Shown here one piece after another: positions 5,720-54,370 of a DNA stretch of 64,000 bases; the stretch's first letter is position 1, and every line of letters begins with the position of its first letter. This stretch comes from Verrucomicrobiia bacterium. Lineage in GTDB: Bacteria > Verrucomicrobiota > Verrucomicrobiia > Palsa-1439. The notes under the pieces were generated by a model, which worked only from the letters and a program-made list of their open reading frames with translations, did no database searches and was not told the origin of the DNA. A program made the position numbers and the translations under genes. The stretch lies in the NCBI GenBank assembly GCA_022072455.1, contig JAJVHY010000004.1:248001-312000 (forward strand), written 5' to 3'.

Positions 5720-5866
5720 ACCCCGACGCGCGCCAGCCTAGAAAAACACAAGCGCCGAATCAATCCTATTCCCTGCGGGCGCGCCCGGCTCCGGCCGTTG
5801 CTGGCCGCGATGTTCCTTGTTGACGCACCGGCAACCGCTCACTACTTTCCCGCCGGGTTGCCATCT

Positions 5867-7294: not shown

Positions 7295-7345
7295 CAACGG
7301 GAAGTCGCGGTCAGGCAATATCGCGGGGAGTCCTTCGCGTGCAGC

Positions 7346-8404: not shown

Positions 8405-8469
8405 CGGAAGGGAACTCCTGTCTGGCGACAGTAGGTCTGCCGCCATGGTCCGTCAACCACCCTTTGCGA

Positions 8470-9705
8470 CTACAACCCGACAACCAAGCCGGCGGCGGCC
8501 ACACCGGTCTGACTCGCGTGGCGGATAATCCCGGTATTCTTGACGACGCTGCCGCCTGGTGTCCCGGCGCGTGCGAATACATTCTGAAGATTCAGGTGGC
8601 CGATTGTCCCGCAGTTGCGTACGAGATTGACCGGAGCGGGAAATTGGTTGACCAGCGTGACGTCGCTCAACTGCAGACTTTCGACGGTCGCGCCCGACTC
8701 GATGTGGATGTCATCGACGGGCACCGCGGTTTCGGTCCGGTGATAATCGCGCAGCGTCAGGTTCGAGACGACTGCGGGAGCATCAATCCAGATTTGGGAG
8801 AAGCCCGACCAAAGCGGCCCCGCCTGAGGTTTGGCCGTGCCCGCGGCGGATTTGGAACAAAAAACGCCTTCGATGGAAATATCGTCAAACGTGCTCGGCT
8901 CACCGGGATGGACTTTGTGATTGGTGAAGGAAACGACATTATGCCGATAGGTGCCGAAGATGTTGGCGAGTCTGACCCGGCGGATCGGTGAGCCCGCCGA
9001 GAGCAGGCGCACGCCGGTATAGCCATCTTGCGACCAGATGCCGTCCACGAGAATGTCGGTGATCGGGCCGCGGCTGAGTTCCGCGATGCTGCCGTCGTCG
9101 GCGTTCAACGCGACGAGGTCGTCATTGGTCGTGCCCTTGAGATTCCCGATGCGCCCTTCGTGGCAATTACCGTGGAGATGGACGCCGTCCATGTTCGCGC
9201 GCAGCAGATTGTAGTCGAACGTAATGTCTTCGATGGTGAACCGACGCAGATTCGCCGCCTGAAAACCGAACATCTCCGGATCTTTCAGCGTGAGGTTCGC
9301 CACTCGCAAGTCGGTGACCCGATTGAACTGCATCAGCACGCCGAGGTAGCGGCACGGATCGAACGGGACTTTCCAATTGCCAGTCTGATGGTATTCGCAG
9401 GTCTGGTGCGCGTTATTGCCATCCCAAATGCCGCCGGTCACGGTGATGCGTTGGTTGCCCCGCTCATGGTCGGCATTCGTGAGCATGTGCGCGTGAGCCT
9501 GATCAGCCAAACGGATCACGGCGTGCCGGTCCGCCGCGAGTGTCTGGCCGGAATGAATCAGCAGCGGCCGGCTGATCAGGTAACACACCGGCGGCGCCGG
9601 CAGCCAAACCGTTGCCGCGCCGCTGTTGAGTGCCGCCTGCAAGCCGGCGGTGTCATCGTGTTGACCATCGCCGACCACACCGGAAAAGTTGAGGGCTGAT
9701 CGCAT
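8470..9705 (-). CDS. Right-handed beta-helix protein (pectate lyase / polygalacturonase-like)
   Basis: A 411-residue protein with the N-terminal FSGVVGDGQHDDTAGLQAAL signature of the Pectate_lyase_3/GH28-type beta-helix superfamily, followed by repeating short beta-strand turns with NADDG- and HGNCHEG-type loops. The superfamily contains polysaccharide lyases, polygalacturonases and phage tailspikes. No signal peptide is visible at the chosen start, which is unusual for a polysaccharide-degrading enzyme. Catalytic residues cannot be assigned with confidence. Upstream lies the TerB/DUF697 gene on the same strand, separated by about 70 bases. Confidence 0.7.
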   Translation of the reverse strand: MRSALNFSGVVGDGQHDDTAGLQAALNSGAATVWLPAPPVCYLISRPLLIHSGQTLAADRHAVIRLADQAHAHMLTNADHERGNQRITVTGGIWDGNNAHQTCEYHQTGNWKVPFDPCRYLGVLMQFNRVTDLRVANLTLKDPEMFGFQAANLRRFTIEDITFDYNLLRANMDGVHLHGNCHEGRIGNLKGTTNDDLVALNADDGSIAELSRGPITDILVDGIWSQDGYTGVRLLSAGSPIRRVRLANIFGTYRHNVVSFTNHKVHPGEPSTFDDISIEGVFCSKSAAGTAKPQAGPLWSGFSQIWIDAPAVVSNLTLRDYHRTETAVPVDDIHIESGATVESLQLSDVTLVNQFPAPVNLVRNCGTIGHLNLQNVFARAGTPGGSVVKNTGIIRHASQTGVAAAGLVVGL

Positions 9706-11109: not shown

Positions 11110-13635
11110 TCACTTCGCCTCGGGCGCGGGCTGTTCCTGAAGACCCGCGTAAATGGCTTGGATGAATTGACCGTGGTACTTGTTCAGATTCTTGCCGGCC
11201 CCGTTGCGGCACATGACGATGATCAGGTCGTTGACGGGGTCAATCCGCAGCGTGGCATTCGAGGCCGCCATGTGTCCGAGGGTGGTTGGCGCCATCGCAG
11301 GTACGTCCCGGAAGAACATTGTGCCCAAGCCGTAAACGCCATCGACTGTCGCGCCTTGCTCGCGCAGGGGACGCGGCTGGAGCATCTCGAACTGTGCGGG
11401 GCCGAAGAAGCGCATGTTCCCGTAGGCGCCCTTGTTCAAGATCATCTGGGCGATGCGCGCGACCTCCAACGGCGTGGACATCGTCCCGTGGGTCGTCCAG
11501 CGCGTGTCGGTGTTTTGGCAGTCCAGCGGATCGAGCAGATGCTTCCGGTAGAATTGCGGCATGGCTTCGCCCGAGATTTGTTCCATGACTTTCCCGGCGA
11601 GGGCGATGTCAACGCCGTTGTAAATGTTCACACTGCCGATCGGCAGGCCTTCGACGTGTTCGGCCACGAGTTCTTCGAGGTCGTTCATCTCATCGCCCCA
11701 GTGGCCTTCGAGGCCGGTCGTGTGATTGAATAGACTCCGAATGGTCAGCGGCTTCACCGTCTTGGCCCCGCGAAATGGCGGAAGATATTTCTCCACCAGA
11801 TCGTCGGGATGCACCAAACCTTGGTCGGCCAACATCATCAGCAGCGTGCCGGTCATCAATTTGGTGATGGATTGCATGGCGCTCGGCGTGGTCACGGTCA
11901 TGGGTTGGCCGGCCCGGGTGCCATACGCCTTGTGCAACACCACCACGCCGTGCCGCACCACGCCGACCGCGAAGGCTTCATCGGTATCCGCCGCCCACGC
12001 TTGCAGAACTTCGTCGATCTTCTGGGGCGCGTCGGCTTTCATGCCGGCTTCCGCCAGCGGGCCGTCGCGCACCACGGGAGCGGGCTGGCCGGCGAGCGGT
12101 TTGGGGCAGACAAACGGACCCGGGAAAGCTTTGTCATTGCCATAGAGTTTGCGTTTCAGGTTCACCCACCATTGCCGGTCCAGCGCGGCGGGGTCGTTGA
12201 ACATGTTCGTACCGCCGGTGGAGTCAGCGAGACCGGCCAGCAGGATGGCACCGGCAGCGCGGCGCGTGAACGTCTCCGCCACGGATTGGCGCACGAAGTC
12301 GGTGAACAATTTGTCGCGATCGGTGAATTCCTTCGGCAGCCACGGCCGCAGGACATCACCGCTACCGGCGACTGGCGCGCCGTGCAACCATTCGACCTCT
12401 TTATCGAGCCGGTACAGCGTGCCGAACCGGTGAAACACCTTGCCGTCGGCCCGCGTGATCGTGGCCACCGCGCCGTAGCGGCCGGGCGTCTTGGCCTCGG
12501 TCACCGGCTGGTGGTTGGCATCGTAATAGGTGAATGTGCATTCATAATCACCAATCGCGGACGCCATGTCGCGGGGCTGCGCGAAATCCCCCCGCGGGAA
12601 CTGGCTGCCGGTAAAACAGTAGGCCGAGAAGGCAAACGGTTCGGCGAGCGCGCGGGTGAGACGGTCCGCCGCTTTCGGCCCGAGCAGGACGCCTTGCCCG
12701 GCCAGCTTGCCATCCACCATGTAGGTCAGCGGTCGGGTGCTTTGGGCCGGGACCAGTGCAATCGCGGCCCGACCGGTGGCACGCTGGTTGGCGGGCTTGA
12801 GCAAAACCTTGGTCAGTTCTTGGCCGGCGCTGAGCACCGTCACTTCCTTGCCGGCTAAAGTGGCTGGACCGTTCAGGACCAGATACTCCGCCACCCCGGC
12901 CGTCTGGATGCAGCCGGCAATTTGCTGGCGACTGCTGGGCCGCGTGGCGAGACGAATGCGGTGCATCCGATCGGAGTACTGGAACGTGCCGTCGGCCGGA
13001 TACCAGACCGCGTGAAATTGTTCGGCCCCGTCAAACTCGTCGCCAAAAAATTGCAGCCCCAGTTCCAGCCCCGGCTTGGGTTGCAGACCGATGTTCTCCC
13101 ATGGCAACAGCACTTCGATCTGGCAACCATCCGCCGTGCGACTACTGGCGGCGGCAACGGCCAGCGGTTTGGCCTTCAAGCCGGGATCACTGCGAAAATC
13201 GTACAGATGATGCCGCAGTAAGGGCTGATTCGGATCCATGCCGGGCGCGATGATGGTTTGATACATCTGTTTACCGCCGCGCTTGTCGGCGACATAAATC
13301 TCAATACAGTCGCCCTTGTACAATTCGGCGGCCTTGAGCGACTCAAGGAAGTGGTCATCCCGCAAGATCGCCAAGACCACGAGGCCTTTTTCGTTCCAAC
13401 CGACGCGGAACCGGCAGTCGTAGTCAGCCGGCGCGAGCGTCGCTCCATTTTTCGAGGCCAGCGTTTCCACGATCATCCCGCGTCGGCCCCAGTCATCAGC
13501 TTTACCATCAATGACGATGCCGGCGATGCGGGGGATATCGAACAGGGGCGGGCTAGAAGCGATTTGTCCGAAGGTGGCAGTGGTCACCCACAGAAATACC
13601 GAGATCGAGACGGAATATTTTTTGACGAATCGCAT
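11110..13635 (-). CDS. Secreted CBM9-like / class C beta-lactamase-fold serine hydrolase fusion
   Basis: An 841-residue protein. The ATG at 13635 gives a signal peptide (MRFVKKYSVSISVFLW...) and has a GGGGAG ribosome site 6 bases upstream. Residues about 30-230 resemble a family 9 carbohydrate-binding module, as found in xylan- and mannan-binding proteins. A central region of about 300 residues is unassigned. The C-terminal 270 residues form a beta-lactamase/penicillin-binding-protein-like serine hydrolase with the S-x-x-K motif Ser589-Ile-Thr-Lys592. The second motif reads YNG rather than the usual Y-x-N, so activity should be tested. An esterase or peptidase role in the periplasm is more likely than antibiotic resistance. 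Confidence 0.75.
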   Translation of the reverse strand: MRFVKKYSVSISVFLWVTTATFGQIASSPPLFDIPRIAGIVIDGKADDWGRRGMIVETLASKNGATLAPADYDCRFRVGWNEKGLVVLAILRDDHFLESLKAAELYKGDCIEIYVADKRGGKQMYQTIIAPGMDPNQPLLRHHLYDFRSDPGLKAKPLAVAAASSRTADGCQIEVLLPWENIGLQPKPGLELGLQFFGDEFDGAEQFHAVWYPADGTFQYSDRMHRIRLATRPSSRQQIAGCIQTAGVAEYLVLNGPATLAGKEVTVLSAGQELTKVLLKPANQRATGRAAIALVPAQSTRPLTYMVDGKLAGQGVLLGPKAADRLTRALAEPFAFSAYCFTGSQFPRGDFAQPRDMASAIGDYECTFTYYDANHQPVTEAKTPGRYGAVATITRADGKVFHRFGTLYRLDKEVEWLHGAPVAGSGDVLRPWLPKEFTDRDKLFTDFVRQSVAETFTRRAAGAILLAGLADSTGGTNMFNDPAALDRQWWVNLKRKLYGNDKAFPGPFVCPKPLAGQPAPVVRDGPLAEAGMKADAPQKIDEVLQAWAADTDEAFAVGVVRHGVVVLHKAYGTRAGQPMTVTTPSAMQSITKLMTGTLLMMLADQGLVHPDDLVEKYLPPFRGAKTVKPLTIRSLFNHTTGLEGHWGDEMNDLEELVAEHVEGLPIGSVNIYNGVDIALAGKVMEQISGEAMPQFYRKHLLDPLDCQNTDTRWTTHGTMSTPLEVARIAQMILNKGAYGNMRFFGPAQFEMLQPRPLREQGATVDGVYGLGTMFFRDVPAMAPTTLGHMAASNATLRIDPVNDLIIVMCRNGAGKNLNKYHGQFIQAIYAGLQEQPAPEAK

Positions 13636-13792
13636 GGCAACTCCCCTTGTTTTGGGGATGAGTACCAACTCTGTTGCCATTGGGAAATCTTTATTCACCC
13701 ACCCGCCGCACCGGTGGTGACGCGCGTGAAAAGCCAATCCTTGGACAAAAAAACAAAAGCACGCCCGCACCGTTCTGGTTAAGGTGACACGC
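13636..13792. promoter_or_regulatory. Divergent intergenic region
   Basis: This 157-base space separates the start of the minus-strand serine hydrolase from the start of the plus-strand beta-helix gene, so both promoters must lie here. An A-rich stretch (13746-13760) is present. I could not identify convincing -35/-10 pairs or an operator. Confidence 0.4.
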
Positions 13793-15700
13793 ATGACTAC
13801 TGCCATTCAGGAATTTTTCGTCAGTCCAACCGGCGCCGATACGAATGTCGGGACAGCGGCCGCACCATTCCAAACCCTCACCCGCGCGCGCGACGCGATT
13901 CGCGCCTGGAAAACGGCCAACGAAGGAAAATTACCGCCCGGCGGGATCCGCGTTCTACTCCAGACCGGTACCTACCAGCTGGCCGAGACGTTCACGCTCA
14001 CCCCGTCAGACTCCGGCGCCGCCGGCAAACCCATTCGTTATGAAGCCGCTCCCGGCGCCAAACCCGTCATCACCAGCGCCCGCGAAATTACCGGCTGGCG
14101 CAAATTGACCGAAGTGGTACCCGGCGTCACGGACGCGGCAAAAGGCAATCTCTTCGTCGCCGATGTGCCGAAAGGCTGGCGGCTCCATTACTTCTTCGTC
14201 AACGGCCAACGCCAGCAAGTCGCCCGCTGGCCCAACCATTACCGCTGGCGGGAATGGCCGGTCTACAAAGTTTACGACGACGCCGGCATGCAATGGCCGG
14301 ACGATGTGCCGGTCGACCATCTCCCCGACAACGGCGACACCGAGATGGTTCAATTGCCGGCGGAGTTTTGGAACATCCTCGTTTCCATCCGCCAACTCGA
14401 CCGCGCCCGGCGCGTCACCCAATTCGCCACCAACAACCCGGTCGTCCTCGCCAAAAAAATCCCGGACTGGATGCCGCATCAATTCGCCCTGCTCAACGCC
14501 CTCTGTCTGCTCGACGAACCCGGCGACTGGTGCGTGGACAGCGCTGCCGGCAAACTTTACTACTGGCCGCCCGACGGCACCATGGCCGGCAAGACCGCCA
14601 CCGCGCCCGCGCTCTACCGGCTCGTGGAGTTTGCCGGGGACGCCGAAGGCGGGCCGGTCGTGGGCCACGTCGAATTCAACGGCCTGACCTTTCACGGCAC
14701 CGACCGCGTCCCCGAGGACGAATGGCCCGCCCACTGGCTCAAGCGCAACTCTGAAATTTCCGATGCCGCCATCCACCTGACCGGCGTGCGCGATTGCGCC
14801 ATCACCAACTGCGTCATCACCGATGTCGGCGCGTGCGGCATCACCCTCGCGCACTGGGCGAAACGCGTGCGGATCGTCGGCAACAAGATCGGCCCCACCG
14901 GCTCCTGTGGGATTTACTCCCACGGTTGGGGTGCCGGGTCTCTCGACACCAACCGCGACAATGTCATCACCCGAAATTACATCCACGATCCCGGCAGCGC
15001 GCCCTACTGGCATGCCGCCGCGATCTCGCTCGTGGCCGCCAGCCGGCACACCATCACCCACAACTACCTCGAAAACCTACCCTACGCCGGCATCTCCATC
15101 GCCGAAAATATGTGCAAGGAAATTCCCACCGATCTCGCCACCCGGCAGTATCCCGCCCCGCGCGAGGCCGCCAACGCCTACAAACAATTTCGCTACACCG
15201 AGTTGCCGCATCGGCCGGCGTGGACCGAGCACAACGTCAAAGACATTCTCCATACCGGCGACAGTCGCATCGAACGGAATATCATTCACAACTACATGCT
15301 CAAACTCAACGACGGCGCGGCGTTGTACTGCTGGGGCGTCGGCGAAAACAACGTCTGGCGCGAGAACATCATCGCCCGCACGATCGACACCGAGAAAAGT
15401 TTTGGGATTTACATGGACGACGAAACCCATTTCGCGCTCGTCGAGGGCAATCGCATCTGGGGGCCGATTGCCCGGCCCTGGTTCGACAACAGCCATGATG
15501 CACTCGGCCAGCCGATTGCGGAAATGTGTGAGAATACCGACCCGCTGCCAACCGCCAGTGGCGGTTGCAGCAACACCTACCGGAACAACCTCGCCAGTCC
15601 CGTGGCAAAACCCGCCGGCTACGATGAGTTGCTGACGAAGATCGTGGCCGACGTGCAGAGCGCCGGCGGCTGGCCCGGCAAGCCCACCCCGCCCGCCTGA
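13793..15700 (+). CDS. Right-handed parallel beta-helix protein, putative glycoside hydrolase/lyase
   Basis: A 635-residue protein. The opening EFFVSPTGADTNVGTAAAPF, then RARDAIRAWK, LLQTGTYQL and the DSG-based strand are typical of large beta-helix carbohydrate enzymes, including the GH141 type. Repeats of NYIHDPG/NYLENLPYAG/NIIHNYM turns follow through residue 560. The ATG at 13793 was preferred to a GTG three codons earlier because AAGG precedes it at suitable distance. No signal peptide is visible. It opens the plus-strand carbohydrate locus. Exact activity is not assignable; an enzyme acting on fucose-, xylose- or uronate-containing glycans is a guess. Confidence 0.7.
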   Translation: MTTAIQEFFVSPTGADTNVGTAAAPFQTLTRARDAIRAWKTANEGKLPPGGIRVLLQTGTYQLAETFTLTPSDSGAAGKPIRYEAAPGAKPVITSAREITGWRKLTEVVPGVTDAAKGNLFVADVPKGWRLHYFFVNGQRQQVARWPNHYRWREWPVYKVYDDAGMQWPDDVPVDHLPDNGDTEMVQLPAEFWNILVSIRQLDRARRVTQFATNNPVVLAKKIPDWMPHQFALLNALCLLDEPGDWCVDSAAGKLYYWPPDGTMAGKTATAPALYRLVEFAGDAEGGPVVGHVEFNGLTFHGTDRVPEDEWPAHWLKRNSEISDAAIHLTGVRDCAITNCVITDVGACGITLAHWAKRVRIVGNKIGPTGSCGIYSHGWGAGSLDTNRDNVITRNYIHDPGSAPYWHAAAISLVAASRHTITHNYLENLPYAGISIAENMCKEIPTDLATRQYPAPREAANAYKQFRYTELPHRPAWTEHNVKDILHTGDSRIERNIIHNYMLKLNDGAALYCWGVGENNVWRENIIARTIDTEKSFGIYMDDETHFALVEGNRIWGPIARPWFDNSHDALGQPIAEMCENTDPLPTASGGCSNTYRNNLASPVAKPAGYDELLTKIVADVQSAGGWPGKPTPPA

Positions 15701-34100: not shown

Positions 34101-34918
34101 CGTATTGTTTCGAGATTCCAGCGTTGTCGTTCGCCTCGGCGGTGGTCAACGGTGAAGACCGGGACATTTATCCGTTCGCAACGCATTCGTTCATTGATTC
34201 GTGGAGCGCCGCCGAAGTGCGGATCATGGGCAGCTCGCCAAAATGGGGATTCATCAATTTCTGGAAGCCCGGTGTGTACACCAAACCGACATGGCCGCCC
34301 GACCCGAAAATTCCACCATGGATGCACTGGCAATCGCGGGCGATGCACGCGTTGATGATTCCGCATGATTACTGGTACCTCTGGGTCTATCCCACGAGCC
34401 GGACGATTGAAGGACCGTTGGTGAAATTTGGGATCGCCGACCCGGCCGTGCGGTTCATTCCGTACTGGAAACTCGACGGTGTGGCTGCGGCCACCGGTAA
34501 TTCCATTTTGTTATCCGTCTACACCAAGAAAGATCGGGCACTGCTGATCGTCAGTAATCTCTCCAAGCAGGAAGAGGATGTGACCGTCACGGTTGATCCC
34601 CAAAAACTTTTCGGGCGCGTGCCGAAAACGGAAGTGCAATGGAAAGACGTGGATAGTTCACTCATCGGCCCCGAAGGCACCGTCGCCACAAAGGCGGACC
34701 TGAACAAGATCAACCTCGAAGATCACGGCATCAACGATCTGACCGGCCCCAGCCTGCGGAAGTTGGAGGACAGCGCGGTCGGAGATTTCCTCCAAGGCGA
34801 TTCCCCGCGCGAGAAACAACAGAAACATCTCGCCCTGCGGGTTGAGAATGGCGCGGTGAAACTGGTGGTGCGGAAGCAGGACTTCCGGTTGTTGGAAGTC
34901 AGTTTGCCGCGCGAGTGA
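31175..34918 (+). CDS. Secreted LamG-containing glycoside-hydrolase-like protein (DUF6067-like)
   Basis: A 1247-residue protein with signal peptide (MKRSLLLLTLAGAVNA). Two LamG-like concanavalin A modules are seen at about 40-250 and 260-450 (GGVRLAGKGWIQ, GKWTHVLCSWNAG, LPSNTLIDELRVYPWAL). The C-terminal half resembles DUF6067-type glycosidases, with a WLGNDERGVCFFGENDQGW segment and a TIM-barrel core with DGIYIDDTSLG and VVNGEDRDIYP as candidate acid sites. The catalytic mechanism has not been shown for the family, as far as I know. It follows PhyH within 2 bases and converges with the PEP-CTERM gene, overlapping it by 20 bases. Confidence 0.65.
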   Translation: MKRSLLLLTLAGAVNAAPPKSPLSADAFWRQPPQAGPQTLLLWQLDGEETGPAADPVGELEKKLKSSLDDIRFDEELTDPTRRPYIGYGLQGDAKLDRAGRFGGGVRLAGKGWIQSQRVDAQGGVTLDFWVNPDPQAPAAPLVLIGDQPVVERTATGQVQLGSLVHPRRVPANEWTHLAVRLGPAGMPTLFVNGTPAANTQPRLIPTAVPVFSLGKGLVGRIDAVRLTAGMYPFYELEETAQFTTHPLEKSPPYFVFRRPLVVEAPFDDGTAAGVRGRALDLGTVGKDGLVIGNQFPLQRGSVEFWVMPQDWENLFTAKLSPSEVPWLPILRYGPALRTLSLAQGKFSLDTGAKLATVPFRPGKWTHVLCSWNAGAVAVYLDGRPQPLAQVSFAGNAPAKEGVEYALTLLPSNTLIDELRVYPWALTGLEAANAYHRFFTNPAEPLTAMPFVQANPSYDYYRKYLHVGASCLPIDNIEPTKVTIRIFHRGGEKLIWTGLDIPLNASLQGGSGVPCDLEFGEYPIEVDALAADGRVLKTLKTAYRREKPVWWQNELGKNRPVPKPWTPVQVAGPAATVWSGTVQLAPGGLPVWETLAGPPQLRAKIAGQDEVLTGTAGTFGADATWTNTLTGGGVSATVTGSVEYDGLIKCAVTLNEPTKLEALTLDFPLKPEMAAQLIVNGGGHKFRASWNVQMVGEKPGLHWNSRTGRPGHKGVAFGNFCPIVWLGNDERGVCFFGENDQGWTPNGNVAAQEVIRTNDTVVYRMNIISQPVTNNAPRTFTFYVQPTPTKPLPEGWRGYNRGGFNGSNAVYEAIDAFVSPTLTIPSNTSYHAGITFKLEPTDCESAAFNAKAIRAKFGKSNPVIFYIDASWPQLGPSMGEYREGLFWTGRLTWSREVEDYMVWVINEYLRRGIIDGIYIDDTSLGSTRALYSTAYVMPNGATQPGFSTMGFRRFLQRVWVLFEQYGKQPHIVPHMTYCFEIPALSFASAVVNGEDRDIYPFATHSFIDSWSAAEVRIMGSSPKWGFINFWKPGVYTKPTWPPDPKIPPWMHWQSRAMHALMIPHDYWYLWVYPTSRTIEGPLVKFGIADPAVRFIPYWKLDGVAAATGNSILLSVYTKKDRALLIVSNLSKQEEDVTVTVDPQKLFGRVPKTEVQWKDVDSSLIGPEGTVATKADLNKINLEDHGINDLTGPSLRKLEDSAVGDFLQGDSPREKQQKHLALRVENGAVKLVVRKQDFRLLEVSLPRE

Positions 34919-37900
34919 TCCGGCGGCGGCCCACGAGCCACAACACCCCGGCTACTCCCACCAACAGGAACGTCGTTGGCTCTGGGATCACAATGATGCT
35001 GATCGTGCCGGTCACCCCCAATTGGGTCGTGTCCCATCCGAGACTGCCAGAGAGAGCGGGCAGATTGGTCAGGGCAAAATCCCCGGTCCAGGTGCCGCCG
35101 AAAAGGGTGAAGGTGTCGCCGTCCGCCAGCGCGGCGCCGATGTTGGTGACAGACAACGTCCCGCCAAGCGTGAAGGCGCCGAGGACGCGAATGAAATCAT
35201 TGCTGCCGGCGACGTTGTCTTTGTTCAATTCCAACAGCGTGGTGCCAGCAAGGGTAAGGTCGTTGCTGAAAGTCAGGGTGCCGATGGAGAAACCAGGAGC
35301 GATGACACCGTTGACGGTGGTGTGGCCGGTGATGGTGCCGGTGCCGCGAAGAGTCGCTGCGGGGGCAATGGTCAGGCCGGCTTGGAAGTAGTGGTGGCCG
35401 GTGCCGCCAGTGGTGAGATTCAAACTGGCGGCCTGGAGGCCGTCACCGACGGCCAGGGCGGTGGCGTTGCTGTAGAAGGTGCGCTGGACCGAAAGGGTGC
35501 CGGCATTGAGACTGACCCGGTTGGCCACGCCGGTCACCATCAGGGTCGCGGCGTTGACGGTCCCACCGCTCAAGATCAATTGATTGCTCCGAGCCGCCCC
35601 GGAGCCGAGGGTCAACTGATTGCCCAGCAGATCCCACGTCCCGCCATTGCTCACCGTGACGATGTTGTTCGACGAACCGCTGCCGACAATCGCCGCCCCG
35701 CCACTGAGCAACGTCGCATTCGAGACCGCCAGCGTATTGAACCCAGACCGCGGCCCGCCAATCGTCAACACGCTATTGGATGCCGTTCCGCCGCCGAGTA
35801 CCTGGTAGAAGTTACCGGTCGAGCCGTTGTTACCGATGGTGAGAGCGCCGACGCGAACAGAGCCGCCGTTGCTGATCACCAAGCCATTCGCCGTCGCGTC
35901 CAACGTGTTGCCGACGTTGATCGCGGACGCCGCAAGCACACCGCCGTTGGCCAACGTCACGACGTTGTTGACCGCTGCATTGGTGCCCACCACAAACACA
36001 GCGCTGTTCGTAAAGATCGAACTGTTGCCCACGACTTGAATCACCTGATTGCTGCGCCCGTTGCCGGCGATGTAGGACCGGACCGCCGTGGTCGCACGGA
36101 AGGTACCATTGCTGACGGCGATGAAATCATTCACCCCGGCCGTCAGCTCCCCATACGTCAATGTCCCGCCATTCACGTACAGCGTTGCGGTGCCGAGTAC
36201 ACCGCTGACAAGGGCGTCCACTGTGGCACCGCTCCGCACATCCAACGTACCCGCAAAATCTGTGTTGTTTCCTTGCAGGGTCAAGGTGCCCGTGCCGCCG
36301 CCGGTCGCGTTGCTGATGGCCAACGTGTTGCCAGACTGGAGGGTCACGTTGGTAAATAATGCCACCAAGCCACCCGCCCCCGCGCCCGTCCTGGAAAAGA
36401 TCAGTGCGGCATCATCTGTGACCGTGACCTCATTGAATCGATACATGATCCCGGCGGCGCTGGTGATGTTGCCGGCCAAGCGGAGGCTGGCATTGTTGGT
36501 CGAGAAATCCAAACTTTGGAACGTCAGCGTCCCAGTCCCCCCTCCGGAACCGTTGCGATTGGTCATCACCGCAGCGCCCTCAATCCGGACGATGCCGCCA
36601 ATCAAGCTGGCGCCCGCGCCGGCATTGAAATCCAGATGGAGCGTACCGGCCAACTGTACGACTGCGTTGGTCAATGCGTTGAGGCCCACGGTCGAATTGA
36701 GCCAGCCGCCGGACTTGATCGTGGTGGTGCTGGTTCCCAACCCATACGCCGTTGTCAGACTCAACGTCGCTCCGTCACTGATCGTCACAGTCGCCGTTCC
36801 CATGGAGTTACTGGCGGCCGCCACCAAGATGCTGCCAGAGCGAATATCCAACTTTCCCAACATTCCACTATTGTTGCCCAAAACCGTCAACGTGCCGGTC
36901 CCAGCGCCGGTCGCATTGGTGACGGTCAGCGTGCTGCCAGCATCCACTTCCAAGCTGTCGAACTGCGCATCCATGGAGACCGCTGCAGCTGAAAAGAACA
37001 AAGTCCCGCTGTTCGTCACCACGGCTTTGGACATCCGAAACGTGAACAAGCCCGAGCCGGCTGTTTTGGACAAAGTCAGCGTCTTGCCACCAACAGTGAA
37101 ATCCAGTTTGTCATTGATATAAATTTGTCCGCCCCCCACCGCCGCTTCCAGCGTGGAGTCATCCCAGACTTGCAGTTCGCCACCGACCACTTTCGTGCCC
37201 GACGTGGCACTCGGTGCCGAGTAGAGCAGCTTGCCGCCATTGAGGCGCACCACCGCATTGGAGAGGTGCCCGCTTGGAAGACTTGAGAATATCGCGGTGG
37301 GTAGATCCATCACCCCGCCTTGGTTGAGACTGACCGTGTTCCCGCTCAAGCCGTAGATCGTATTCAAAAAGAGAATTCCGCCATCATTGACATTGACCAG
37401 CGCACTCCCCATCGCATTACTTGCACCCGGCGTCACAATCGCACCTGCCCGAATGTCCACCGTTCCTAACATGTTCGGGTTGCTCTCCAAGAACGTCATG
37501 GTGGCCGCATTGCCGGTGGTATTGGTGATATACAGCGTCGCGTTTGAAAGAGTCACATTGGAGAACTGCACCTGCACCCCGGTGCCGCCCTGCCGCGCCA
37601 ACGCAACCGATGCATCATTGGTGATACTAACTGAATCAATCCGGAAGGTCGCCGCACCAAGGGCAGCCGCCTCGCTGCCAAAAGTCAGCGTCTTGTTGGC
37701 CTCCACAAAATCCAATGAGCCATACGTAAAGATCGGACCGCCACCGGTCTGCCGATGGGTGATGGTGGAGTTATTCCAAACCTGTAACTCCCCGCCCATC
37801 AGATAGGTGGAAGTTCCAATCGAGGTGTTGCTAATGACACCGCCGTTCAACCGGATCACCGCGCCTCGGAGCAAATCCGTCGCCGGCGTCATTGTCAGAG

Positions 37901-38216
37901 TGGCCCCATCGTTTAACGTCACAGTGGCGCCGCTCAGCCCAAACGCCAGATTGCCGGCCGCCAGAACGCCGGCGCTGTCCACGTTGATGAAATCGTTACT
38001 GGCGGCGTAGGCCGTCTGCAGACTGACCGTGCCATTGGTAATGACAACATTATCGGCGACATTTGTATTGCCGGGATTGCTGGCGGTACCCCACGTGGCA
38101 TTGACGTTGTACCCGCCGCTGGCCGTGTTGGTGTAATCTGCTGCGTGGCCCAGCGTGGCCACCAAGACCAAACTTGCCAAGCCACCAGCGAAATAGTTGA
38201 AAATTCGTCGCCTCAT
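34899..38216 (-). CDS. PEP-CTERM surface protein with autotransporter-type beta-strand repeats
   Basis: A 1105-residue exported protein. The ATG at 38216 gives a signal peptide (MRRRIFNYFAGGLASLVLVATLGHA) and has GGGAAG 8 bases upstream. The body is Gly/Asn/Thr/Ser-rich and contains repeated GTGTLTLQGNN-x7-LDVRSGATV units, the autotransporter-associated beta-strand repeat, predicted to form a long beta-helix or solenoid. It ends in a PEP-CTERM sorting signal: VIPEPTTFLLVG, a hydrophobic helix and an RRR tail. Such proteins are processed by an exosortase (EpsH) and linked to extracellular polymer; no exosortase gene is in the window. The repeats are protein-level and not a CRISPR. Confidence 0.85.
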   Translation of the reverse strand: MRRRIFNYFAGGLASLVLVATLGHAADYTNTASGGYNVNATWGTASNPGNTNVADNVVITNGTVSLQTAYAASNDFINVDSAGVLAAGNLAFGLSGATVTLNDGATLTMTPATDLLRGAVIRLNGGVISNTSIGTSTYLMGGELQVWNNSTITHRQTGGGPIFTYGSLDFVEANKTLTFGSEAAALGAATFRIDSVSITNDASVALARQGGTGVQVQFSNVTLSNATLYITNTTGNAATMTFLESNPNMLGTVDIRAGAIVTPGASNAMGSALVNVNDGGILFLNTIYGLSGNTVSLNQGGVMDLPTAIFSSLPSGHLSNAVVRLNGGKLLYSAPSATSGTKVVGGELQVWDDSTLEAAVGGGQIYINDKLDFTVGGKTLTLSKTAGSGLFTFRMSKAVVTNSGTLFFSAAAVSMDAQFDSLEVDAGSTLTVTNATGAGTGTLTVLGNNSGMLGKLDIRSGSILVAAASNSMGTATVTISDGATLSLTTAYGLGTSTTTIKSGGWLNSTVGLNALTNAVVQLAGTLHLDFNAGAGASLIGGIVRIEGAAVMTNRNGSGGGTGTLTFQSLDFSTNNASLRLAGNITSAAGIMYRFNEVTVTDDAALIFSRTGAGAGGLVALFTNVTLQSGNTLAISNATGGGTGTLTLQGNNTDFAGTLDVRSGATVDALVSGVLGTATLYVNGGTLTYGELTAGVNDFIAVSNGTFRATTAVRSYIAGNGRSNQVIQVVGNSSIFTNSAVFVVGTNAAVNNVVTLANGGVLAASAINVGNTLDATANGLVISNGGSVRVGALTIGNNGSTGNFYQVLGGGTASNSVLTIGGPRSGFNTLAVSNATLLSGGAAIVGSGSSNNIVTVSNGGTWDLLGNQLTLGSGAARSNQLILSGGTVNAATLMVTGVANRVSLNAGTLSVQRTFYSNATALAVGDGLQAASLNLTTGGTGHHYFQAGLTIAPAATLRGTGTITGHTTVNGVIAPGFSIGTLTFSNDLTLAGTTLLELNKDNVAGSNDFIRVLGAFTLGGTLSVTNIGAALADGDTFTLFGGTWTGDFALTNLPALSGSLGWDTTQLGVTGTISIIVIPEPTTFLLVGVAGVLWLVGRRRITRAAN

Positions 38217-38472
38217 GCGGTTGCTTCCCGTAGGGGTTGGAACATCAATTGCGAATTTCCTCATGTAATTGTCCGGCACTTATTACCCTCACCAATGGGT
38301 AAATCATAGCATATCTGGTCGAAGGTGTTTGAATTTTTTAATCCATATGATGAGTTTTTTGCATCGGCTGCGAGCGAAAGTTGCGGGCGCACAAAATCGC
38401 GGCGGGGACACTGCGCCCACAACGGCTTTCGAGAGCTTGTCAATCAGCCACCGGCCGTTACACTGCCGCGCC
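38217..38472. promoter_or_regulatory. AT-rich divergent intergenic region with small inverted repeat
   Basis: A 256-base, comparatively AT-rich space between the divergent PEP-CTERM and PhyH starts. It holds a TTACCC / GGGTAA inverted repeat (38283-38288 and 38297-38302) and, on the minus strand, a TATGAT hexamer (38303-38308) suitable for a -10 of the PEP-CTERM gene. No matching -35 was convincing. Confidence 0.35.
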
Positions 38473-47976: not shown

Positions 47977-48191
47977 TATCGAAACCGGTTAAACGGTTCG
48001 TCCGGTACATCCCGCCGAAGAACCCATCCCAAAACCACCGGCGGGTGGCGGAGGAATTCCTCGTGGGAGAGGTTCTGAGCTTGCGTTAACAACATAATCA
48101 CGAAAGCCCAGTAAACGGTCTGCCATATTCATTTAATAGGTTGTCCCGATAAGGGGCCATGTTATTCTCATTTCTGGTGGGAGACGCGACG
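47977..48191. other. Intergenic region without recognised gene
   Basis: A 215-base space before the fusion gene. It contains no motif-bearing frame. The right end has a GGGAG ribosome site (48179-48183) that serves the next start. Confidence 0.4.
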
Positions 48192-51100
48192 ATGGAACAA
48201 CAGGAACTCAATGCGATGAACGGGCGATCGGAACCCGCGTTCGCTTGGCGCGAACAAGTCCAGCGGCGCGTGCGCGGCCTGCTCGCCGAACACGGGTTGA
48301 CCGCTCGCCAGTGGACTCTTGAGGAATGGCGGCAAGCCAAGAACGTCCGTCGCCAATTGCTGCGGCAAGCCATGACGGAGGCCTCGTCCGCCTTTATGCG
48401 ACCCGGCTCCCTCCCCGCAGCTCCGAGGATTCTCCGTGAGACTTCGTTCGACGGATTCCGCGTTCAGAACATTGTCATCGAATCGCTCCCCGGCCGACTG
48501 GTCGGCCTCAATCTGTTTCTTCCGGCCGACAAGGAGCCGTTTGTGCCGGTGTTGTGTCCCTGCGGGCACGGCCCGAAGTGGCAGGACGATCACCAGATTG
48601 CGCCGCAGGTGCTGGCGCAGAACGGCTTCGCCGCGGCGCTTTTCGACGCACCGATGTTCGGCGAGCAAAGTCGGAACAACGATCATTTTCTCCAAGGTGC
48701 CCAGATGCAGATGGTGGGACAGTGGAGCGGGTTCTTTTTCCTGACCGACCCTGTTTGCGTCGCCAACTACCTCGCCACACGAGAAGACGTCACGCTCCGG
48801 CACGGGCTCGGCGTCACGGGGGTATCGGGCGGCGGCGTCATTGCCCAGCTTCTCGCGCAAATTGACGACCGGGTCCGAGCGATCGTGCCAGTTTGCGCCG
48901 TTTCCGCCCTAGCCGGTTATATTCTCGACGGATTCTATACCGGGTGTCCGGAGGACTATCTCATCGGCCAACTGCGACTGGGCATGGACTTGGACGATTG
49001 GCTGTGCATGGCCGCGCCGGTGCCGTGCCTGGTGATCGGCGGCATGCGCGATCCGGCCATCACTCCGGAGACAATCGAGACCTCGGTCGAAAAAGCGCGC
49101 CGGTTCTATGAACTGGAAGGCGCCGTCGGGAATCTGGCTTTGTTTTTCGACGACTGTCCCCACAAATATACGGTTCCAATGGCAGTCGAAGCCGCCGGCT
49201 GGTTTCGCCGCCGGCTTCTGAACGATTCGGAGGCCGTCAACCGCCGCGCCGTTGATCTGCTGCCGCGGGAGCAATTGGATTGCGGGACCGGCGCGACCAC
49301 CGAGGGAATGTTCGATTCGATCCGCAGGGAGGTCCGCCGATTGCAGGATGGGCGGCGGAGTGATACGAGCGACTCGGCCCTTCTCGAGGTCCTCGCCATC
49401 GAACTGCCTTCTTCCCCAGGGCACTGCGAGACGGTTCCTCGCGCTACCAAGTGGGGCAAGGAAGGTCTGTCGCGGAAGCGGGTCGCCCTTTCGGGCGACA
49501 TCTCCCTGCCGGTGCTGCAGCTGGAACGGCCCGTGCCGGAGAGTGGAACGATTGTTGGTTTTTCCGACGGCGACAAGTTCCAACTACTGAAGCGGCTGGC
49601 GCAGGTCTCAGGTGTCCGGCGAATCGTGGCCGCCGACCTGCGCGGATTCGGCGAACTGACGCCGGCCCCGTCGGACTACGACACGAACAGTTGGTGTTCC
49701 ATCGACTGCGCGCTATCGGATCTCCTGCTCGCATGCGGAGAAACTGCCATCGGCCAACAGACGCGAGACGCTTGGCGAACGCTCGACGCGGTGGCGCGGG
49801 ACAGTGCGGTCTCCGGCGAGCTGATGGTGATGGGATCGGGGGAAGCCGCCCTGCCGGCGTTGTTCGCGGGCCTTCTGCATCCGCGCGTCACAAGGATCGT
49901 GCTGGACTCGTTCCCTTGCAGTTTTGCGATGCTGGCGACGGCCGAAAGGATTCGCTGGAAGCGGTATCAGTATCTACCCGGCGTGTTGAAGCGGTTCGAT
50001 CTGCCGGAGCTTCTTGCCTCGCGCCGCGAGAAGAAGTTCTTGGTGGTCAATCCCTGTGACGGTCTGAAGCGGCCACTCGATGAGATTGCGGCGCTCGCGC
50101 TTTACGACCGGGACGCCGGCAACACCGCGGTGCATGTCGCTTTCGGGTCGGCTGACCTGGCCGCCGCCATCCGTCAGTGGATCGAGACGCCGGTGCCGGC
50201 AGCCGAGCCGCTCGACCCGACCCCGGCGATTCGCGGGGGCCGCCCGGTGCGCGTCCGCCCCTTCCCGTGCAAACTGCTCGGGGCCGATCTGACCGGTCTC
50301 GGCGAGCTCTACCAAGTGCAGGAATCGCTGGCGACAAAGACGCTGTTCCGCCACTACGGCATCGGGAAACCCGTCATGGCGAAAACGTTTGAGCAAAAAA
50401 TGCGCGACCGGTTTGGCGCGCGGTTTGCGCTCGGTTTGACGTCGGGTTCCGCCGCGCTTTTCTGCGCCATGGCCGGTCTCAACATCGGCCCCGGCGACGA
50501 GGTGATTCTGCCGGCCTTCAGTTGGTACTCCTGCTTCAACGCCATCCTCCGGTTCGGGGCGATGCCCGTGTTCTGCGGCATTGACCGGACGATGAATCTC
50601 GATCCGTCCGACTTCGAGCGCAGGATCACCCCGCGCACCAAGGCGGTCATCGTGGTTCATTACCAGGGCGGTCCGGCCCGCATGGACGAAATCATGGCCA
50701 TCGCGCGCCGGACCGGCGTCAAAGTTGTCGAGGACTGTGCGCAGGCGATCGGCGCCTCCTACCGCGGCCATCTGCTCGGCACTATCGGCGATGTGGCGAC
50801 GTTCAGCTTTCAAGGCAACAAGATCCTCACCGCCGGCGAGGGCGGCCTGATCGCCACCGGCGATGCGCTGGTGTTCGAGCGGGCGGTGCGCTTCCACGAC
50901 CTTGGCCACTTCAGGCCTGTGTTTGCCGGCCAGGTTGGTCAGGACGCAAAAGTACCGCAGTTCGCGGGCGAACAGTTCAGAATGAGCGAACTGACTGCGG
51001 CGGTCATGAACGCGCAACTCGACCGGCTGGACTGGATCGTCAGCCGGTGCCGGCGCCGGTGGCGCATGGTCAAGGAACTGGTGCAGCGTGAAGTTCCGGA

Positions 51101-51461
51101 GATCATGTTCCGTGATTCTCCCTGTGCGGATGGAGACGCCGGCATCACCCTGTTCGTGGACCGGGGAACCGCCGCGGCCGGTAAAGGGTTTCTCGACGCG
51201 CTGGCGGCGGAGGGCATTGCCGTTGGCCCGTCGTCCGGGATGTCCAATCTCCTGCGCGAGGAATACGTTCAGGCGCGACGCACTGTCCACCCGGCGCTGC
51301 CGCCGTTGGCGTCCGCGGGAGAAAAGTACGCCGCTGAGCTCTTGGCCGCGACGGAACAGATGGTGCAGCGCATGACGCCGATCGCAATCGGTCCGCGCTA
51401 TTCCGAGCAGGATGCGCGGGACATCGCCGCGGCAATCGTCAAGCTGGCGCGCGCGCTGTAA
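48192..51461 (+). CDS. Alpha/beta-hydrolase - DegT/DnrJ/EryC1 aminotransferase fusion
   Basis: A 1089-residue protein. ATG 48192 has GGGAG 8 bases upstream; an ATG 33 bases earlier lacks one. Residues about 75-370 form an acetyl-xylan-esterase-like alpha/beta hydrolase with nucleophile elbow G-V-S212-G-G-G, and its Asp and His in RDPAITPE and DCPHKYTVP. A second, degenerate hydrolase-like region follows (about 430-680), in which GSGEAALP replaces the nucleophile elbow. Residues about 710-1089 are a complete PLP aminotransferase of the DegT family with Lys877 in FSFQGNKILTAGEGG and HYQGGPARMDEI. I know of no described fusion of these. It could esterify or deacylate and then transaminate one sugar substrate; that is inferred. 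Confidence 0.75.
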   Translation: MEQQELNAMNGRSEPAFAWREQVQRRVRGLLAEHGLTARQWTLEEWRQAKNVRRQLLRQAMTEASSAFMRPGSLPAAPRILRETSFDGFRVQNIVIESLPGRLVGLNLFLPADKEPFVPVLCPCGHGPKWQDDHQIAPQVLAQNGFAAALFDAPMFGEQSRNNDHFLQGAQMQMVGQWSGFFFLTDPVCVANYLATREDVTLRHGLGVTGVSGGGVIAQLLAQIDDRVRAIVPVCAVSALAGYILDGFYTGCPEDYLIGQLRLGMDLDDWLCMAAPVPCLVIGGMRDPAITPETIETSVEKARRFYELEGAVGNLALFFDDCPHKYTVPMAVEAAGWFRRRLLNDSEAVNRRAVDLLPREQLDCGTGATTEGMFDSIRREVRRLQDGRRSDTSDSALLEVLAIELPSSPGHCETVPRATKWGKEGLSRKRVALSGDISLPVLQLERPVPESGTIVGFSDGDKFQLLKRLAQVSGVRRIVAADLRGFGELTPAPSDYDTNSWCSIDCALSDLLLACGETAIGQQTRDAWRTLDAVARDSAVSGELMVMGSGEAALPALFAGLLHPRVTRIVLDSFPCSFAMLATAERIRWKRYQYLPGVLKRFDLPELLASRREKKFLVVNPCDGLKRPLDEIAALALYDRDAGNTAVHVAFGSADLAAAIRQWIETPVPAAEPLDPTPAIRGGRPVRVRPFPCKLLGADLTGLGELYQVQESLATKTLFRHYGIGKPVMAKTFEQKMRDRFGARFALGLTSGSAALFCAMAGLNIGPGDEVILPAFSWYSCFNAILRFGAMPVFCGIDRTMNLDPSDFERRITPRTKAVIVVHYQGGPARMDEIMAIARRTGVKVVEDCAQAIGASYRGHLLGTIGDVATFSFQGNKILTAGEGGLIATGDALVFERAVRFHDLGHFRPVFAGQVGQDAKVPQFAGEQFRMSELTAAVMNAQLDRLDWIVSRCRRRWRMVKELVQREVPEIMFRDSPCADGDAGITLFVDRGTAAAGKGFLDALAAEGIAVGPSSGMSNLLREEYVQARRTVHPALPPLASAGEKYAAELLAATEQMVQRMTPIAIGPRYSEQDARDIAAAIVKLARAL

Positions 51462-51503
51462 GTATGTGCACCCGGCAAGAATATAAGAATGTGGGAGAAC
51501 AGC

Positions 51504-53669
51504 ATGAAACGAATCTTGGGTATGTGCTTAACCATGGCGGTGCTGACAATGCTGAGCGTGACGAAAGTCGGCGGCGCTGAGTTGAAGGTCGGCACGTTTG
51601 AGGCGGACATCACCCCGCCCCTAGGCACTGTTGCCCCTTACGGCATGGGCCCGGCCTTCAACCGTGTCACCGATCCGCTCTACGCCAAGGGCATCGTAAT
51701 CCTGCCCGCGGGGCAGGAGCCGATTGTGCTCTGCGCGCTGGATTGGGTTTCACTGGCAGGCTCGGGTTACGACGCCTTCCGCGAGGCCCTCGCCAAGGCG
51801 GTGGGCACCAAGGTTCAGCGCGTCAGCGTCCACGTGATCCACGTCCACGGCGCGCCGTGTTGCGATTTCGCGACCGAGGAGTTGGCGGCGGCGCACGGCT
51901 GCGGTGGGTTGCACTTCAACGTCGAGGCGGGCCGGGCCGCGGTCGCGGCAACCGCCGAGGCTGCCCGGCAAACCCTCGCCAAGGCCGTGCCCATCACGCA
52001 TGTCGGCGTCGGCAAGGGCCGGGTCGAGAAGGTCGCCTCCACGCGCCGCCTCATCGGCGACGACGGCAAGATGAAGTACTGGCGCGGCAGCGGGCCCGCG
52101 CGTGACCCGATCATGTTCGACCTTCCCGAGGGGTTGATCGACCCGGACGTGCGCCTCATCGCCTTGTGGAACGGCGACCAACCCGTCGCGGCTCTGACGT
52201 ACTACGCCACGCACCCCATGAGCCACTACGGCGATGGCGAGCTCAGCGCCGACTTCGTGGGCATCGCCCGCAAGATGCGTGACGAGGCGGTCCGCGGCGT
52301 CAGACACATTTACTTCAACGGCGGGGGCGGCAACATCGCCCCGGGCAAGTACAACACCGATGGCTTGGGCAGCCGGCCCGTGCTCGCCCAGCGGCTGGCC
52401 GCAGGCATGGCGGCCGCCTGGGACCAGGCGAAACTCAATCGGCAGCCGCTGAAGGCTGGCGATGTCGCCTGGCGTTTCGCCCCCATCCAGTTGCCCCTCA
52501 AGCCCAACCTGACCGAGGAATCCCTGCTCAAGAAGCTTGACGACTCCAAGATCGATAAGCTCGAGCGCGTCTTTATCGCCGAGGATCTGGTGTTCGTCCG
52601 CCGCAATAGCGGAGCGGCACCCATCGAGCTGTCGCGCCTGACCTTGGGGCCCGCCGAGGTCGTGAATTACCCGGGCGAGCCGGTCATCGAGTATCAGTTG
52701 GCGGCCCAAGCAATGCGGCCAGACCGCTTCGTGTGCTTTGCCGGCTATGCGGAATATGGGCCGGTTTACATCAGCACGGAGCTAGGCCACTTTCAGGGCG
52801 GCTTCGAGGCCGAACGCTGGTGTCGGACCTCCGCTTTGGCGGAGCGGGTCCTGATCACCGCCACACGCAAGCTGCTCGACGCCCCGCCGGTCCCCGAGCC
52901 CTCGGCCCAGATCCCGGCCGGGGCCAGCCCCTACATGCGGGCCGTGCTGGAAGACCGCCCCAGCGCGTACTTCCGACTGGGCGAATCCGATCACGCCGCC
53001 GGTTTGCGCGACAGCTCCCAACCCCCGCGCGCCCCCGGCGCGTACTACGGCAGCCCGAAACTCGGCGAGCCCGGGGCCATCGCGGGCGATGCGGATACGG
53101 CCATCCGTCTCGACGGCCAGAAGACTTGGGGTCTCGCCAGCACGACGCTGGCCAACATAACCATCAAGGCCAGCTTCACCGCCGAAGTGTGGGCAAAGTC
53201 CGCCACGCCAGCATTCAACTCCATGGCGTGGTTCGTCAGCAAGCGCGGGCCCGATGGCCTGATCTTCGGTCCGGACGTGTTCACTGAGGGCGGCAAGACC
53301 ATGCAGCGCCTCTCCGCGTGGGTTTTGGATGACCAAGGTCGAAGCGACGCCGCCATCCGCGGCCCGGCCCTGCCCGATACCTTCGATGTTAAGCGCTGGC
53401 ACCACTACGCCGTGACCTACGACGCCGCCAGCGACACGGCCGTGATCTACCTCGACGGCCAGGAGTACGCAACGCGCCGCAACCTGCTGACAGCCACCGG
53501 CGGGAAGCGCTCCCCGCAGACCCAGATCAATCTGGTGTTCGGTCGCGACGACGCCATGGCCGGCCGCTTCGGCGACGGCTGGCTCGATGAGGTCGCGGTG
53601 TATGCCCACGTCCTCACCTCGGAGCGCATCCAGGCGCACTACCGCGCCGGACGGCGAGAGCAACCGTGA
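51504..53669 (+). CDS. Secreted neutral-ceramidase-like protein with C-terminal LamG domain
   Basis: A 721-residue protein with signal peptide (MKRILGMCLTMAVLTMLSVTKVGG). Residues about 30-430 resemble the neutral/alkaline ceramidase fold, with VGTFEADITPP, the His-x-His-like HVIHVHGAP and the THPMSHYGDGELSADF segment. The nucleophile region of ceramidases, GDVSPN, is replaced by GGNIAPGKYN without Ser, so classical ceramidase activity is doubtful. Residues about 480-715 form a LamG domain (WHHYAVTYDAASDTAVIYLDG). A GGGAGA ribosome site precedes ATG 51504. The stop overlaps the creatininase start (GTGA). Confidence 0.7.
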   Translation: MKRILGMCLTMAVLTMLSVTKVGGAELKVGTFEADITPPLGTVAPYGMGPAFNRVTDPLYAKGIVILPAGQEPIVLCALDWVSLAGSGYDAFREALAKAVGTKVQRVSVHVIHVHGAPCCDFATEELAAAHGCGGLHFNVEAGRAAVAATAEAARQTLAKAVPITHVGVGKGRVEKVASTRRLIGDDGKMKYWRGSGPARDPIMFDLPEGLIDPDVRLIALWNGDQPVAALTYYATHPMSHYGDGELSADFVGIARKMRDEAVRGVRHIYFNGGGGNIAPGKYNTDGLGSRPVLAQRLAAGMAAAWDQAKLNRQPLKAGDVAWRFAPIQLPLKPNLTEESLLKKLDDSKIDKLERVFIAEDLVFVRRNSGAAPIELSRLTLGPAEVVNYPGEPVIEYQLAAQAMRPDRFVCFAGYAEYGPVYISTELGHFQGGFEAERWCRTSALAERVLITATRKLLDAPPVPEPSAQIPAGASPYMRAVLEDRPSAYFRLGESDHAAGLRDSSQPPRAPGAYYGSPKLGEPGAIAGDADTAIRLDGQKTWGLASTTLANITIKASFTAEVWAKSATPAFNSMAWFVSKRGPDGLIFGPDVFTEGGKTMQRLSAWVLDDQGRSDAAIRGPALPDTFDVKRWHHYAVTYDAASDTAVIYLDGQEYATRRNLLTATGGKRSPQTQINLVFGRDDAMAGRFGDGWLDEVAVYAHVLTSERIQAHYRAGRREQP

Positions 53670-54370
53670 ATCAGGCGCTGCGTTTCGAGAACCTCTACGG
53701 CGAGGAACTCGATCGCGCGATTGCCCGACTGCCGCTGGCTTGGGTTCCGCTGGGGATCCTCGAGCGCCACGGTGAGCACCTGCCGTGGGGGCTCGACGGA
53801 ATCAAGGCCCACGGGGTTTGTTTGCACCTAGCGCAACGGCTCGGCGGGGTGGTGTTACCGGCGTGTCATCTGGCCGGCGTCCACGAACCCTGGCTGCCAG
53901 ACCCGGCGGCGGCCCGAAAACTGATGGCGAAGGTCCGCGATTTCTACCTGTCGGAAGCGACCCTGCGGATGCTACTCGAGGACACCGGCCGCGGGTTGGC
54001 ACAGGTCGGCTTCCGCATGATTGTGTTTTATACCGGGCACTACCCGCAATTGCAGATTCACGTCGTCAACGATGTCGCCCAGCGACTCACCGCCGCGGGT
54101 GTGGCGCAGGTCGTCGGCTTCGATGAGCTGACCTTCTTTGGCGATGGCGATCACGCGGGCAAGTGGGAGTCGTCGATCTACCTGGCCTTGGGCGGTGAGT
54201 TTCGCCGGGCCGCGCTGCGCGATGAGCATCGCGACCGCACCGGGTACTGGTACTCCAACAGCCCACCGCACCAAGCCAGCCTCGAATTTGGGCAACAGGC
54301 CCTCGCCCGCATCTCCGCCCACTTTGAACAACTGGTAACGGAGCACAGAAAATTGCTATTGCGGGGCTAG
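53666..54370 (+). CDS. Creatininase family amidohydrolase
   Basis: A 234-residue metal-dependent amidase. Metal ligands of the family are present: Glu33, His35 and Asp44 in ILERHGEHLPWGLDG, and a later His and Glu in DGDHAGKWESS. The GTG start lies in a GTGA overlap with the ceramidase-like gene. Creatininase-family members hydrolyse cyclic or formyl amides (creatinine, 2-amino-5-formylamino compounds, mycofactocin precursor). The substrate here is unknown. Its 3' end overlaps a converging gene by 4 bases. Adjacent amide- and amine-handling genes hint at breakdown of an N-acyl or amino compound. Confidence 0.82.
   Translation: MNQALRFENLYGEELDRAIARLPLAWVPLGILERHGEHLPWGLDGIKAHGVCLHLAQRLGGVVLPACHLAGVHEPWLPDPAAARKLMAKVRDFYLSEATLRMLLEDTGRGLAQVGFRMIVFYTGHYPQLQIHVVNDVAQRLTAAGVAQVVGFDELTFFGDGDHAGKWESSIYLALGGEFRRAALRDEHRDRTGYWYSNSPPHQASLEFGQQALARISAHFEQLVTEHRKLLLRG

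Follow-up and report, generated by a model that had tools for sequence, protein, structure and literature searches.

The window analysed here is a 64,000-nucleotide stretch of the genome of a Verrucomicrobiia bacterium (GenBank assembly GCA_022072455.1, contig JAJVHY010000004.1, positions 248,001 to 312,000), a draft assembly of 36 contigs. Its forward strand carries a single frame of 1089 codons that links an alpha/beta-hydrolase part to a DegT-type aminotransferase part (Table 1). The translation is uninterrupted by any stop or frameshift from 48192 to 51461, as an earlier note on this DNA had stated, and the codon-position composition is unchanged across the junction of the two parts. The longest possible frame starts 33 nt further upstream; an SD-like sequence (GGGAG) precedes the ATG at 48192 only, and there is none before the upstream start. 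Two other genes of the window, both on the reverse strand, were noticed by eye. The one at 11110-13806 combines an N-terminal carbohydrate-binding-like domain with a serine beta-lactamase-like/esterase domain (SAMQSITK) and is a possible fusion, and the one at 34899-38279 looks like a large repetitive autotransporter-like secreted protein with a PEP-CTERM-like end.

Table 1. Features of the fused gene, its neighbours and the associated amidohydrolase pairs. Coordinates refer to the window unless a locus is named.
Feature	Coordinates	Strand	Remarks
Fused gene	48192..51461	+	1089 aa; alternative ATG at 48159 gives 1100 aa; full-length homologue at L118
Alpha/beta-hydrolase domain 1, CE19/BT1017-like	48417..49226	+	residues ~76-345; resembles PDB 6goc by sequence and fold
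Ser212 codon, predicted nucleophile	48825..48827	+	elbow GVSGGG; 20/20 homologues
Asp287 codon, predicted triad acid	49050..49052	+	invariant, 20/20 homologues
His324 codon, predicted triad base	49161..49163	+	invariant, 20/20 homologues
Second alpha/beta-hydrolase-like domain, degenerate	49425..50186	+	residues ~412-665; strands and helices in the model; no serine elbow
Linker, TPVPAAEPLDPTPAIRG	50187..50237	+	residues 666-682; same length in L118, aligned without a gap
GTG codon 668	50193..50195	+	in frame; sole plausible site inside the gene from which a free DegT could be translated
DegT/DnrJ/EryC1/StrS aminotransferase, complete	50238..51458	+	residues 683-1089; PF01041; fold like Fic25, KdnA, perosamine synthase
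Lys877 codon, predicted PLP Schiff-base lysine	50820..50822	+	motif SFQxNK; invariant in the DegT alignment
Next gene downstream, 27 nt away	51489..53669	+	C-terminal LamG-like domain, Laminin_G_3 E 7.5e-17; context only
Creatininase-family gene	53666..54370	+	PF02633 E 4.8e-22; context only
AH1-AH2 pairs	L118:8679-10246, L122:3445-4982, L174:3187-4724, L176:5868-7402, L179:1876-3416, others		AH1 without HxH, AH2 with HxH

Residues 1-665 belong to a family of proteins of about 650-750 aa for which Verrucomicrobiota and members of further phyla have stand-alone genes. Pfam yields only weak alpha/beta-hydrolase matches in this part. The one significant PDB sequence match is BT1017 (6goc; phmmer E 4.4e-15, residues 49-316), and the AlphaFold2 model of the hydrolase half (pLDDT 88.9, pTM 0.90) also finds 6goc as its best Foldseek match (E 4.1e-17); acetyl xylan esterases and CE15 glucuronoyl esterases come next. 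Resemblance to the BT1017 type of CE19 is therefore seen in both sequence and fold, with about 21% of residues identical in the part that aligns. Only one member of CE19 has been characterised functionally (PMC10483417); BT1017 is a pectin methylesterase which removes methyl esters from uronates, and its Ser282-Asp352-His388 triad was established by mutation (PMC7939467). The window protein shares the GXSXGG elbow and the Ser-Asp-His order, with Ser212 aligned to the GSGGG serine of 6goc (Ser282) and a spacing of 75/37 residues versus 70/36 in BT1017 (PMC7939467). The zinc ligands of BT1017 are His201, His244, Cys315 and Cys317 (PMC7939467). At or near these positions the window protein has His126 and Cys252, which align, and His165, which is off by at most one residue; the second cysteine has no counterpart in the alignment, and a conserved Glu254 lies nearby. 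Among 20 homologues, His126 is present in all, His165 and Glu254 in 19 each, and 19 have Cys or Asp at position 252. The label "acetyl-esterase-like" given in the earlier note calls for a correction: BT1017, the closest esterase to have been characterised, is a methylesterase and not an acetylesterase, and "carbohydrate esterase", with a methylesterase as nearest kin, is the more fitting term for this hydrolase.

The second hydrolase domain has MGSGEA where a nucleophile elbow would be expected, and the position of Ser549 is freely variable among relatives, in keeping with the degeneracy noted before. Judging from these sequence features, domain 1 is proposed to be the active serine esterase copy and domain 2 a catalytically dead one. 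The tandem hydrolase layout is not new, since TBR22_41900 of Luteitalea has already been described: according to that description it likewise consists of a CE19 domain followed by a variant second alpha/beta-hydrolase domain, but it has 634 residues, lacks a DegT half and is known from prediction only (PMC10483417). BT1017, in contrast, carries a signal peptide together with a DUF3826 domain and possesses neither a second hydrolase domain nor an aminotransferase. A hydrophobic N-terminus, present in many distant homologues, is absent from the window protein as well as from those nearest to it, so the fused protein is probably cytoplasmic. A hydrolase paralogue in the window's own genome (contig C1, 384092-385075) gives a match containing one in-frame TAG; it is possibly a decayed copy, or the match overruns the gene end. 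A tandem duplication was seen in a 744-aa protein of another locus (L103:12834-15068), which has two uroporphyrinogen-decarboxylase-like (URO-D) stretches.

The C-terminal half is matched by Pfam PF01041 (DegT_DnrJ_EryC1) at residues 731-1080 (E 4.3e-72; 243.8 bits versus a cut-off of 19.8). This full domain with its invariant lysine bears out the earlier reading of a complete PLP aminotransferase, and both Ser212 (TGVSGGG) and Lys877 (QGNKILT) lie where that reading had put them. In ColD/E1 dehydratases a histidine takes the place of the PLP-binding lysine; because Lys877 is invariant, the DegT half is not a dehydratase of this type. It begins with GGRPVR (682), apparently its natural start, as a GGxPV motif is likewise found near the start of unfused homologues. 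No NCBIfam equivalog scored above its cut-off for this half (best 182 bits versus 375). The closest PDB folds are Fic25 (8gyh), KdnA (5k8b), GDP-perosamine synthase and ArnB, which have the same DegT fold and PLP lysine at 28-31% identity in the fold alignment. All four differ from the window protein in being single-domain enzymes with no hydrolase fused.

Unfused hydrolases end, and unfused DegTs begin, at the position of the linker, and a motif E..DP..AI.GG.PV is common to the window and L118 proteins. The junction proposed earlier is confirmed as such, but its boundary falls at residues ~666-682 and not at 680-720. The full chain, modelled as a monomer, reached a pLDDT of 85.2 and a pTM of 0.63 (hydrolase alone: 0.90). 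Because of this low pTM, and because residues 667-673 of the linker fall below a pLDDT of 50, there is no support for a rigid channel; the channelled step suggested in the earlier note is not backed by a model that has a flexible, low-confidence linker and no confident interface. Translation might also begin inside the linker, at GTG 668 (nt 50193), and release a free, normally dimerising DegT besides the fused form. This codon has no SD-like sequence upstream, which is weak evidence against it since such sites precede just 8 of the 42 window genes, but the aligned codon in L118 (CAA) is no start codon, and the internal start is improbable.

The same architecture was found at L118 (CAIQQO010000149.1), a contig of the uncultured bacterium isolate LJ_bin-0733, which is distantly related and was independently assembled. 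Its ORF at 5318-8680 (1120 aa) aligns over its full length with the window protein (49% identity). It was reached by a search with an alignment of the hydrolase only, while a whole-protein scan of the genome collection gave no match. No third fused frame was detected in overlapping sets of 57, 384, 388, 297 and 387 genomes (about 1,500 genome searches); the collection was scanned for fused frames with two peptide patterns only, with the caveat that more fusions could exist. One might suspect that faulty assembly or an overlooked stop codon merged two neighbouring genes, given the draft state of the source genome and the fact that its closest relative with an unfused pair, G466, encodes each half in a gene of its own, the two lying on different contigs (hydrolase 40%, DegT 49% identical). 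Against this, both modules are complete to their natural termini, codon-position composition is even at the junction, and L118 carries an in-frame fusion of identical layout whose linker is equally long. The accident would have been needed twice in the same register, and such an artefact is extremely improbable. The earlier note had named a case against the fusion, namely homologues always split at this point and a junction explained by error; L118 shows the opposite. The gene is a true fusion in which both enzymes are complete, and it encodes a rare two-enzyme protein.

In the hydrolase tree the window, L118, L119, L120 and G466 sequences form a clade with a support of 100/100, and in the DegT tree the window, L118 and G466 group together (SH-aLRT 99). 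The hydrolase tree places the window sequence with the unfused L119 (93/94). A hydrolase clade made of the fused pair, window and L118, is not rejected (p-AU 0.058), and one fusion with later loss therefore cannot be distinguished from two events. At L119 and L120 the hydrolase is present and the matching DegT absent. As the earlier note had supposed, no description of an esterase-DegT fusion was found in the open-access papers searched, among which most subscription journals are missing. No PDB chain spanning both modules occurs among the top fold matches of either half. Each module is of a known family, and their combination appears to be a new domain combination within the literature covered. 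PtTamH offers a parallel as a natural di-domain of a PLP transaminase and a thioester reductase, partners in one pathway (PMC9594044); its transaminase and partner families are different and its domain order is reversed relative to the window protein.

Two Amidohydrolase_2 genes (AH1, AH2) lie directly downstream of the fused gene at L118, a Gfo/Idh/MocA gene overlaps its start, and two heparinase-II/III-like proteins are encoded nearby. The order hydrolase-AH1-AH2, with a stand-alone hydrolase, occurs in eight Opitutae/Verrucomicrobia loci (L122, L124, L125, L129, L130, L133, L136, L140), and at L120 one gene intervenes between the hydrolase and the pair. A DegT takes the same place in the window's own genome (C11, L174), G647 (C445, L179) and G466 (C9, L175). 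These DegTs are paralogues, 32-36% identical, and fall outside the fused clade. In G466 AH1 and AH2 form a single 529-aa ORF (L175:3726-5315). The N-terminal HxH metal motif is found in AH2 at 17 of 17 loci and in AH1 at none of them, and the two are possibly an active/inactive enzyme pair; the nearest PDB relatives of AH2 are ACMSD-type decarboxylases, a weak match (E 2.6e-05). The window genome has its AH1-AH2 pairs on other contigs, away from the fused gene. The N-terminal part of the gene next downstream of the fused one (51489..53669) is weakly like a C4 gene beside AH1-AH2 (28% across 95 aa when compared with the L176 gene). The earlier note's account of the fusion had not seen this amidohydrolase operon, which emerged from L118 and the other loci. 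The recurrence of hydrolase and DegT in one slot upstream of AH1-AH2 is the best explanation of their fusion.

Other gene neighbourhoods of DegTs were also observed. In G466 (L110:2460-6338) the fused-clade DegT is followed by a 409-aa gene (1-nt overlap, no Pfam match) and then by a phosphoglucosamine-mutase-family gene; the 409-aa gene might be a marker of the pathway, and no relative of it was found in the window's own genome. At L081, L094 and L110 a protein of ~620-670 aa with an RDLG[VI]PVK.. N-terminus and weak propeller matches is encoded beside DegT genes in several Verrucomicrobiota. This beta-propeller-like gene does not occur in the neighbourhood of the fused gene in the window.

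From the frame, domains, catalytic residues, conserved fusion and operon linkage we infer the following activities, substrate, direction and step order. A CE19-type tandem hydrolase, a flexible linker of ~17 residues and a complete DegT aminotransferase would make up one cytoplasmic chain, which would have originated by fusion of two genes that each recur directly upstream of AH1-AH2. The esterase half would take an ester (methyl or acyl) off an intracellular sugar or sugar-acid derivative, or open it. The DegT half would then perform a keto/amino exchange on this intermediate or the one that follows it, drawing on glutamate or a comparable donor, and AH2, paired with AH1, may carry out a subsequent metal-dependent hydrolysis or decarboxylation. 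It is probable that the esterase-DegT polypeptide acts with AH1-AH2 in one sugar pathway, and most likely the fusion joins two partners of one such cytoplasmic pathway. Removal of an acyl group from an acylated sugar or amino sugar, as the earlier note suggested, fits as one of several possibilities but is not singled out, the closest characterised esterase acting on uronate methyl esters (PMC7939467).

A catabolic direction is favoured, since the Gfo/Idh/MocA and heparinase-II/III-like neighbours at L118 suggest catabolism of a uronate- or amino-sugar-containing polymer. Because phosphoglucosamine mutase adjoins the unfused G466 DegT, in a gene run suggestive of amino-sugar biosynthesis, a biosynthetic role has to be weighed as well: the DegT half would help to make a modified nucleotide amino sugar, on which the esterase half would trim or edit an acyl group. 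The solved DegTs that come nearest, KdnA, perosamine synthase and ArnB, indeed act in biosynthesis. The L118 neighbours, amidohydrolases included, nevertheless look catabolic, the nucleotide-sugar equivalogs of NCBIfam stayed below their cut-offs, and the relatives of the esterase are polysaccharide-degrading enzymes (PMC7939467, PMC10483417), which makes biosynthesis unlikely. The fusion could also be a co-expression device only, in which two enzymes with separate substrates share an operon slot with no coupling. The flexible linker and the interdomain arrangement, modelled without confidence, would suit such a device, as would L119 and L120, where an unfused hydrolase without the matching DegT implies that a genome need not always combine the two activities. 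On the other hand, two lineages have kept the fusion at ~49% identity and both hydrolase and DegT are associated with the same amidohydrolase pair, and a mere co-expression device seems rather doubtful. With the joint cytoplasmic sugar pathway as the preferred reading, a more specific proposal is put forward tentatively: the fused esterase-transaminase and AH1-AH2 might together make up an intracellular route, so far undescribed, by which Verrucomicrobiota and related bacteria process an esterified amino or keto sugar acid, with ester cleavage and transamination physically coupled on one chain.

A conserved fusion is strong evidence of two enzymes working together. This one ties CE19, a poorly characterised esterase class, to DegT aminotransferases, a group plentiful in these bacteria but still without assigned functions there, and together with the amidohydrolase pair it provides a concrete four-part candidate pathway. 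It also suggests that part of the CE19-like family moved into the cytoplasm.
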